Positions 15,298 through 16,595 of a stretch of 35,006 nt of DNA are shown one piece after another. Position 1 is the stretch's first letter; each line of letters starts with the position of its first letter. This DNA is from Actinomycetota bacterium (GTDB taxonomy: Bacteria > Actinomycetota > Acidimicrobiia > Spongiisociales > UBA5794): contig JASJXX010000022.1 of assembly GCA_030123765.1 (NCBI GenBank), positions 1 to 35,006 on the forward strand, given 5' to 3'. A model generated the notes under the pieces. That model was not told the DNA's origin, did not search any database, and saw only the letters and a list, made by a program, of their open reading frames with translations. A program made the position numbers and the translations under genes.

Positions 15298-15474
15298 TCA
15301 CATTCCGGCCTGCCGATTATGCGTCGGTGTAGTAGCTCGCGGTGAGTGGCGACGTTGGGCCGTTGGTCTCGGCGTGTGCTCTGGGGCATCAACCATCTTG
15401 AACTCCTGGATCGCTGCGTCCTGTTCCTGAGTCGGGCTCTCGGGTTGGGGGATCGACTCAAGGGGTGAGACCAT
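15298..15474 (-). CDS. Possible small ORF downstream of the SOS-boxed gene
   Basis: A 58-residue frame, rich in Pro, Gln, Glu and Thr, starts at an ATG only 2 nt after the stop of the coiled-coil protein gene. The spacing fits translational coupling, but there is no separate ribosome binding site, no recognisable domain, and the second half looks like low-complexity random sequence. It may be non-coding. If expressed it would share the LexA-controlled promoter at 16566-16595. Confidence 0.25.
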   Translation of the reverse strand: MVSPLESIPQPESPTQEQDAAIQEFKMVDAPEHTPRPTAQRRHSPRATTPTHNRQAGM

Positions 15475-15476
15475 GA

Positions 15477-16538
15477 TTACTCGTTGTTGTTTCCCGATGT
15501 CCACGTCTGGTACCTCCGTGCTCTCTCATCTAGATATTCCTGAACCGCGGCCTGCATCGTGCTGTTGTCGTGTGGTCCCGGCAGAGATGGCGCTCCAATG
15601 GTGGAACGTACTTTCTGGTCTCCGAATAGGTGCTGAAGCTTCTCAGCGGCGTCGATTGTCTGAAGCACCCCCCGGTTGATGATGGCGACAGCGAGGACTG
15701 TTGCTCTCTGAGCGCGATAGCCGCGGTGGTGCTCGACGACTCTGCCCTCGAGCCCGACGAGACCAACTACAAACGTCTTGCCAAGGGTGCTTCCGAGTTC
15801 ACCCATCAGGGCTTCGACGGTCTTCGCGGCGTAGATGCCGCAGCCGAACGCGACGTCAGCGCATCGCCCATCGGTGTGGGGAATCTCCCCATCCCAGGAA
15901 CACTCGGCCGAGAGGACGGTCGACCGCCACCGTCGCCGTGCACCGTAGAGACCATCCTTCTCGATGCTCCATACGCGGTAGCCGTGTACCGCGGTTGGTG
16001 ACCACATGGTCGCCCCCTCGGTGTCGCCCATCTCGACACGGAGCGCAGCGAGCCGCTTTCTTCGAGCGAGATCCACCGCACGTGCCCGCTGCTCCGTGTC
16101 TTGGACACAGTGACGCAGCATCTCGACGAGCTCCGCGCTCAATGCAAGACGGAGCGCGTCAAGGTGATCGATGCGCTGTTGAAACTCCTCGATCTCTTCG
16201 GTCAACTCGAGTGTCCGTGCGACCCGAGACTCGAGTTTCGTGCGAAGCCGCTGAGCGCTCCTGGCACCGTCCGGGCCCGGCGCGCCATCAGGGGGACCGA
16301 CGAGAACGAGAGCCCGCTGGAAGCCGTGCACATCAGACGCGATCCACCTGCGTTCTTCCTTGAGTTCGTCTCGGCGGTATTCAGCCGACGCCAGCGGCCC
16401 CGCCCGACCGCTGATCTCTTGTCGCAGTGCAGAGATTTGACTGGCGAGGGAGGGGTCACACATGGCGCTGGGGAGCCTCGTGAGGTCAGCGAGCAGCACC
16501 CGGATCTCCGCTCCGTATGTATCGTTTGTGTGACTCAT
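15477..16538 (-). CDS. Unrecognised coiled-coil protein with a C-terminal Cys/His 'CGIYA' domain; LexA-box promoter
   Basis: A 353-residue soluble protein that I cannot assign to a named family. Residues about 31-170 are charged and heptad-like (for example LELTEEIEEFQQRIDHLDALR), suggesting a long coiled coil with a Gly/Pro break at 81-91. Residues about 185-285 form a compact domain with GYRVW, a possible metal site (Cys213, His221, Cys226, Cys233), the CGIYA string at 233-237, and GRVVEHHRGYRAQ at 265-277. I recall a similar 'C-x(n)-H-x(n)-C.CGIYA ... G.V.EH..GYRA' pattern in uncharacterised actinobacterial proteins, but cannot check it. The start is the ATG at 16538 (GGGGG just upstream); 16547 is possible. 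A LexA box lies inside its predicted promoter, so it should be DNA-damage induced. Confidence 0.75.
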   Translation of the reverse strand: MSHTNDTYGAEIRVLLADLTRLPSAMCDPSLASQISALRQEISGRAGPLASAEYRRDELKEERRWIASDVHGFQRALVLVGPPDGAPGPDGARSAQRLRTKLESRVARTLELTEEIEEFQQRIDHLDALRLALSAELVEMLRHCVQDTEQRARAVDLARRKRLAALRVEMGDTEGATMWSPTAVHGYRVWSIEKDGLYGARRRWRSTVLSAECSWDGEIPHTDGRCADVAFGCGIYAAKTVEALMGELGSTLGKTFVVGLVGLEGRVVEHHRGYRAQRATVLAVAIINRGVLQTIDAAEKLQHLFGDQKVRSTIGAPSLPGPHDNSTMQAAVQEYLDERARRYQTWTSGNNNE

Positions 16539-16565: not shown

Positions 16566-16595
16566 AACATAGCGTGATCGAACATGTGTTCGCAA
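16566..16595 (-). promoter_or_regulatory. Predicted promoter of the coiled-coil gene
   Basis: On the minus strand TTGCGA (16595-16590) and TATGTT (16571-16566) are separated by 18 bp, each matching 4 of 6 consensus bases. Transcription would start near 16559, about 20 nt before the ATG at 16538. The LexA box at 16579-16592 covers the spacer and the 3' half of the -35. Confidence 0.5.
16579..16592. promoter_or_regulatory. LexA-binding site (SOS box) 1
   Basis: CGAACATGTGTTCG fits every position of the Gram-positive/actinobacterial SOS consensus CGAACRNRYGTTYG. It lies 41 nt upstream of the coiled-coil gene start and between its predicted -35 and -10, the usual position for LexA repression. 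Confidence 0.8.

Follow-up and report, generated by a model that had tools for sequence, protein, structure and literature searches.

SOS regulons beyond model bacteria contain many genes to which no function has been assigned, and the locus described here raises the question of what one such gene, preceded by an exact LexA box, might contribute to the response to DNA damage. The window, by which we mean the whole stretch of 35,006 nucleotides that was analysed (positions 1 to 35,006 of contig JASJXX010000022.1, assembly GCA_030123765.1), comes from an Actinomycetota bacterium of the class Acidimicrobiia and carries a gene for a 353-residue protein, here called CGIYA. This gene is genuine, and its 3′ end overlaps the start of a second, small gene for a peptide, here called MDIG, which was overlooked in the first reading of the window. 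Our answer, to which we give a probability of roughly 55%, is that the two genes form a LexA-repressed cassette that would make a damage-induced protein–peptide complex, an effector under the control of its peptide. The evidence is computational and comes largely from metagenome-assembled genomes (MAGs).

The preliminary description had assigned the gene a LexA-box promoter of its own, and an exact copy of the palindrome CGAACN4GTTCG does lie 40 bp upstream of its ATG (Table 1). Within the window, nine matches to this palindrome with at most one mismatch were found against 2.45 expected, a number reached in 0 of 100 shuffles, and the genome (2.2 Mb, 98.6% complete) holds 13 exact palindromes against one for a reversed control. 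The palindrome also precedes lexA (two boxes), recA, dnaE2, ruvC and an imuA′-like gene in this genome (names are those of NCBIfam matches, that of imuA′ falling below its curated cut-off), identifying it as the LexA operator. It belongs to the same sequence class as the Streptomyces venezuelae LexA motif tCGAAC-N4-GNNCGa (PMC9380542); in this the gene resembles the LexA/SOS regulon of Actinomycetota, whereas its product lies outside the known SOS families.

In all members of this type whose 5′ region is intact (21 of 21), the box was exact, mostly 34–47 bp before the likely start. Among non-redundant SOS-type homologues, further MAG loci included, 27 of 32 had it exactly and all 32 with no more than one mismatch; in contrast, relatives carrying the C-terminal domain alone had an exact box in 0 of 32 and one with at most one mismatch in 4 of 32. 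The box is therefore a property of this subfamily and not of the domain, and although the preliminary description would have been refuted by homologues that consistently lack SOS boxes, the opposite was seen. Conservation of the operator, rather than expression, supports the placement of CGIYA in the LexA regulon, and seen in this light the gene adds a new member to a regulon already well known. Across an order, an entire subfamily is thereby linked to LexA, and the relatives that are not so linked serve as a built-in control group. A one-base variant, CAAACN4GTTCG in place of CGAACN4GTTCG, was observed at loci L059 (3547), L061 (3490), L063 (3691), L065 (2492) and L115 (−).

The second gene encodes a peptide of the form (M/V)DIGxxxRVIxVEP with a Pro/acidic tail, 31–92 residues long across loci, the overlap with CGIYA being 7 or 25 nt at almost every one of them. 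In ATGGACATAGG, one frame reads W-T-stop as the end of CGIYA and the other reads M-D-I-G, and the conserved W-T or W-I with which CGIYA proteins end (15477–15504 in the window) is an out-of-frame reading of the start of the peptide. The TAG that appears ‘inside’ several homologues, close to their end, for which readthrough was considered and rejected, is this same overlap. The peptide frame was present at coiled-coil-group SOS-type loci with readable 3′ flanks, and since its invariant residues use several synonymous codons (three for Ile3, four each for Gly4, Arg8 and Val9), it is the protein itself that is conserved. Searched for alone in the order sample, the peptide turned up in 21 of 22 genomes of the SOS type (the exception being cut off by a contig edge) against 2 of 38 others, both of which carry a membrane-type CGIYA gene; in a phylum sample of 396 genomes, it was found in 4 of 4 SOS-type genomes against 1 of 392 others, and that one adjoins a CGIYA-like gene. 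Fisher tests of this co-occurrence ignore relatedness, and the peptide pattern was tuned on the very loci that had yielded it; the phylum search and the case of phage BRock, described below, played no part in its definition.

The arrangement of the two genes varies. Their order is swapped at L035 (box–peptide–CGIYA), and at L115 some 196 kb separate the peptide gene from CGIYA, with a one-mismatch LexA box, of the CAAACN4GTTCG variant, 69 bp upstream of the peptide gene. With a looser pattern, similar peptides were seen beside the domain in many Actinomycetota of the non-SOS kind, at an enrichment near the domain of about 30-fold per base. The pair is not confined to SOS use, being carried without the box by phages and by other Actinomycetota. 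At L127 (G141 C64, 1500–1730), an MDIG peptide runs in frame into a CGFYA stretch and the frame breaks before the GKVIEHETGYRA part, which may represent a gene fusion, a frameshift or decay of the gene.

A candidate binding interface between the two products emerges from residues that are lost together. Across 54 loci, Glu269 of the CGIYA domain is paired with Arg or Lys at position 8 of the peptide in 44, all six loci without Glu269 (Pro or Met instead) are also without Arg8 (Pro or Ser), and the combination of non-Glu with Arg was never found. Four loci combine Glu with a residue other than Arg; at L029 and L049 these are mis-hits of the pattern, the real peptides carrying Arg, and at L067 the hit is not MDIG-looking. 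L157, the Lys case, is apparently a mis-hit too. This covariation suggests that Glu269 and Arg8 are in direct contact where peptide and domain meet, and together with the partner peptide it makes an orphan gene a testable two-part system.

Under the reading we favour, which builds on direct observations (the operator and its conservation in the subfamily, the second open reading frame, the overlap, the co-occurrence and the conserved residues), DNA damage would free the box upstream of CGIYA from LexA, and a single transcript would then yield, through the overlapping start, both the 353-residue protein and the small Pro/acidic peptide. The protein would consist of a helical arm and a beta domain stapled by zinc; with its N-terminal segment, IGxxxRVIxVEP, the peptide may dock on the domain hairpin GRVVEHxxGYRA, Arg8 being set against Glu269. 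Protein and peptide would act as a complex, in which the peptide may control the activity or the targeting of a damage-induced effector. Should the complex prove to be a checkpoint, a repair adaptor or an inhibitor-controlled enzyme, it would be a new kind of SOS output; known SOS regulators of division are said to have no clear homologues in Streptomyces (PMC9380542).

Several points weigh against this reading. The fourth locus with Glu269 and no Arg8, L142, is a true exception to the covariation, which may reflect only three independent changes, four of the six non-Glu loci belonging to one phage group. No recognisable peptide was found near CGIYA at L034, L051, L059 and L067. The cassette is also patchy, missing from most family members sampled, and is therefore not an essential checkpoint. 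The CGIYA protein was matched in 25 of 60 relatives, and when 21 members were placed in a tree, each of the host families f3, f4 and f8 came out as one group and f1 did not; given the patchy distribution, loss or transfer has happened.

Table 1. Coordinates of the features discussed, as positions in the window.
Feature	Position	Strand	Basis
CGIYA gene, 353 aa + stop, ATG start	15477-16538	-	Open frame, homologues, aligned start
MDIG peptide gene, 68 aa + stop, GTG start, overlapping the CGIYA 3′ end	15298-15504 (including stop)	-	Conserved overlapping open reading frame
LexA box of the cassette, CGAACATGTGTTCG, exact	16579-16592		Palindrome CGAACN4GTTCG
Helical arm, residues 29-170 (helices 29-80 and 89-170)	16029-16454	-	AlphaFold2 model
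CGIYA beta domain, residues 177-295	15654-16010	-	AlphaFold2 model, homologue comparison
Stretch with four putative metal ligands (C213, H221, C226, C233)	15840-15902	-	Sequence pattern
Hairpin GRVVEHHRGYRA, residues 265-276, with Glu269 covarying with peptide Arg8	15711-15746	-	Model, alignment
Second LexA box, CGAACGTATGTTCG, overlapping the helicase ATG (16793)	16786-16799		Palindrome search
Divergent UvrD/PcrA-like helicase	16793-18847	+	Family matches; linkage within this genus only

What the protein itself might be was approached through its architecture. The preliminary description had held that it could not be assigned to a known SOS family, and no family match was found in Pfam, NCBIfam, PHROGs, PADLOC or the PDB. 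Models of known SOS effectors (RecA, LexA, ImuA′, DnaE2, RuvC and UvrD) gave no match to CGIYA, while such family models do detect other regulon genes of this genome. An SMC/RecN-type identity was not borne out either, the similarity being a weak one of coiled coils (16.4 bits against a cut-off of 300) with no ATPase domain, and the best PADLOC defence model reached an E of 0.083, in the coiled-coil region. We found nothing in the literature on the CGIYA family or on DUF7666, a viral family considered below. The protein–peptide module is new in that it matched no family in the libraries searched.

The full-length protein was modelled with AlphaFold2 at a mean pLDDT of 89. The long N-terminal coiled coil that had been proposed for residues 31–170 or thereabouts is helical in this model, whereas its standing as the defining part of the protein found no support: arm length differs among homologues, and in some SOS members the helices are shorter or give way to a Pro/Ala-rich stretch, so that the beta domain is the core of the protein. 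A search of the PDB with the full-length model returned mainly coiled coils, none at E ≤0.001. These observations bear on a second explanation, in which arm and beta domain would serve as a scaffold for the recruitment of repair or division proteins after damage, with the peptide as a structural subunit without inhibitory role. SOS control, the long helical arm and the divergent helicase with a box of its own in this genus would all suit such an adaptor, whereas the arm is variable or replaced, arm and domain each have a net charge near zero, which gives no hint of DNA binding, the domain–peptide pair also exists without SOS control, and the linkage to the helicase is not conserved; we consider this explanation quite improbable. 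The head-to-head repair helicase had been given weight in the preliminary description, and a divergent helicase with its own LexA box is indeed present. Its importance found no support, the helicase neighbour having been seen in the same genus only, and a survey of the neighbourhoods of CGIYA homologues returned no widely recurring neighbour besides the peptide. Because it scores far under the curated cut-offs for PcrA, UvrD and Rep, the helicase is best called UvrD-like and not a clear orthologue.

The beta domain, modelled alone, gave a pLDDT of 90 and a pTM of 0.85. Cys213, His221, Cys226, Cys233 and GRVVEHHRGYRAQ are present as first described, and the possible metal site proposed for the four residues gained support from the comparison of 62 domains, of which 55 read C-H-C-C while the other seven interchange His and Cys at these positions. 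Such interchange is the usual signature of a zinc site, and the conserved domain is thus probably zinc-binding; the putative ligands are wholly absent from some phage copies. Pfam recognised the domain in 0 of 54 homologues, and a profile search of the PDB with the domain was empty. Loci L036, L037 and L039 carry the domain behind predicted-looking hydrophobic segments and without a LexA box, and an MDIG-like peptide follows in two of the three.

Homology to ADP-ribosyltransferases or PARP was suspected from the pattern GIYxAK...VALxGKVxE and was rejected after fold searches (the libraries covered the PDB and viral structures), in which the domain alone gave E-values above 1. ADP-ribosyltransferase toxins had the highest TM-scores in the PDB list (0.34 to 0.43), whereas these matches were not significant (E 2 to 3.4), the domain had no sequence match in the PDB, and its Glu is not universal. 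The fold nevertheless bears on a third explanation, a toxin–inhibitor pair in which the CGIYA domain, perhaps an ADP-ribosyltransferase-like enzyme, arrests growth, the small, disordered acidic peptide inhibits it and damage releases both. A small, Pro/acidic partner that is often encoded upstream in non-SOS loci, two adjacent genes of which one is small (L115, where they are unlinked, being the exception) and a patchy distribution are what such a pair might look like, as is the conservation of Arg188, Tyr236 and Glu269 in the SOS type. Glu269 is, however, absent in other lineages, the peptide gene can be unlinked, no PADLOC match was obtained, and the window protein had no match in annotated phage and plasmid records. 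We regard a toxin–inhibitor pair as unlikely.

DUF7666 (PF24703), a family of phage and giant-virus proteins, was a further candidate and was rejected. Its members were weak hits of the fold search against viral structures (E 0.03 to 0.045), whereas profile comparison gave no support (E 0.66, one member tested), Pfam matched none of 54 CGIYA members, and a search of the bacterium's own genome gave no hit.

The pairing of CGIYA with a peptide was predicted and then found in annotated phages. The viral fold search led to Streptomyces phage BRock, whose gp216 matches the CGIYA profile at 1e-19 and whose next gene, gp215, reads MDIGKVVSVVQAEPL; at the same place, phages GiJojo, LuckySocke and pSt2308 encode MNIGNIVSTVQ(A/S)EPL. 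All these genes are annotated as hypothetical. As in the window, the domain gene is followed directly, with an overlap of a few bases, by an M(D/N)IG...EP peptide gene, whereas the phage domain is N-terminal, without the helical arm, and both Glu269 and Arg8 are replaced. In all, 40 viral contigs carry the domain, and with the looser pattern a peptide of this kind was seen close to it on about a dozen of them. Phage-type queries match some annotated phage and plasmid records, while a query with the domain of the window protein (E up to 10) returned only Vibrio phage matches at chance level. That the cassette is a module of phage origin, or one directed against phages, which came under LexA so as to act upon prophage induction, would accord with these viral copies and with the ribbon-helix-helix gene beside the pair in Streptomyces phages, but no defence family was matched, the peptide is the sole recurrent neighbour and the box was absent at the viral loci examined; we give this explanation very little credence.

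Returning to the peptide-controlled complex, we venture a wider statement, at somewhat short of even odds: CGIYA–MDIG may be an unrecognised two-protein system, common to phages and Actinomycetota, in which a zinc beta domain depends on an obligate docking peptide and which Acidimicrobiia have brought under SOS control as a damage effector whose activity is unlike any known SOS function. The presence of the pair in cultivable Streptomyces phages opens biochemistry that does not depend on the cultivation of Acidimicrobiia.

Three further observations concern loci outside the window. The conjugative plasmid pUSDA76 of Bradyrhizobium elkanii carries a phage-type CGIYA domain for which no gene is listed (L168, 4001–4354), in a stretch where no MDIG-like peptide was found. 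In the bacterium's own genome, an exact LexA box lies at L011 (C127:3031-6044) between an open reading frame of 391 residues and a divergent ATPase-like one, neither with an NCBIfam match, the former having an HNH-like C-terminus. In the Streptomyces phages, the pair is followed by a small gene (L171, 29795–30016; L172, 1913–2122; L173, 1927–2136; L174, 1907–2116), which is annotated as ribbon-helix-helix in three of the four.
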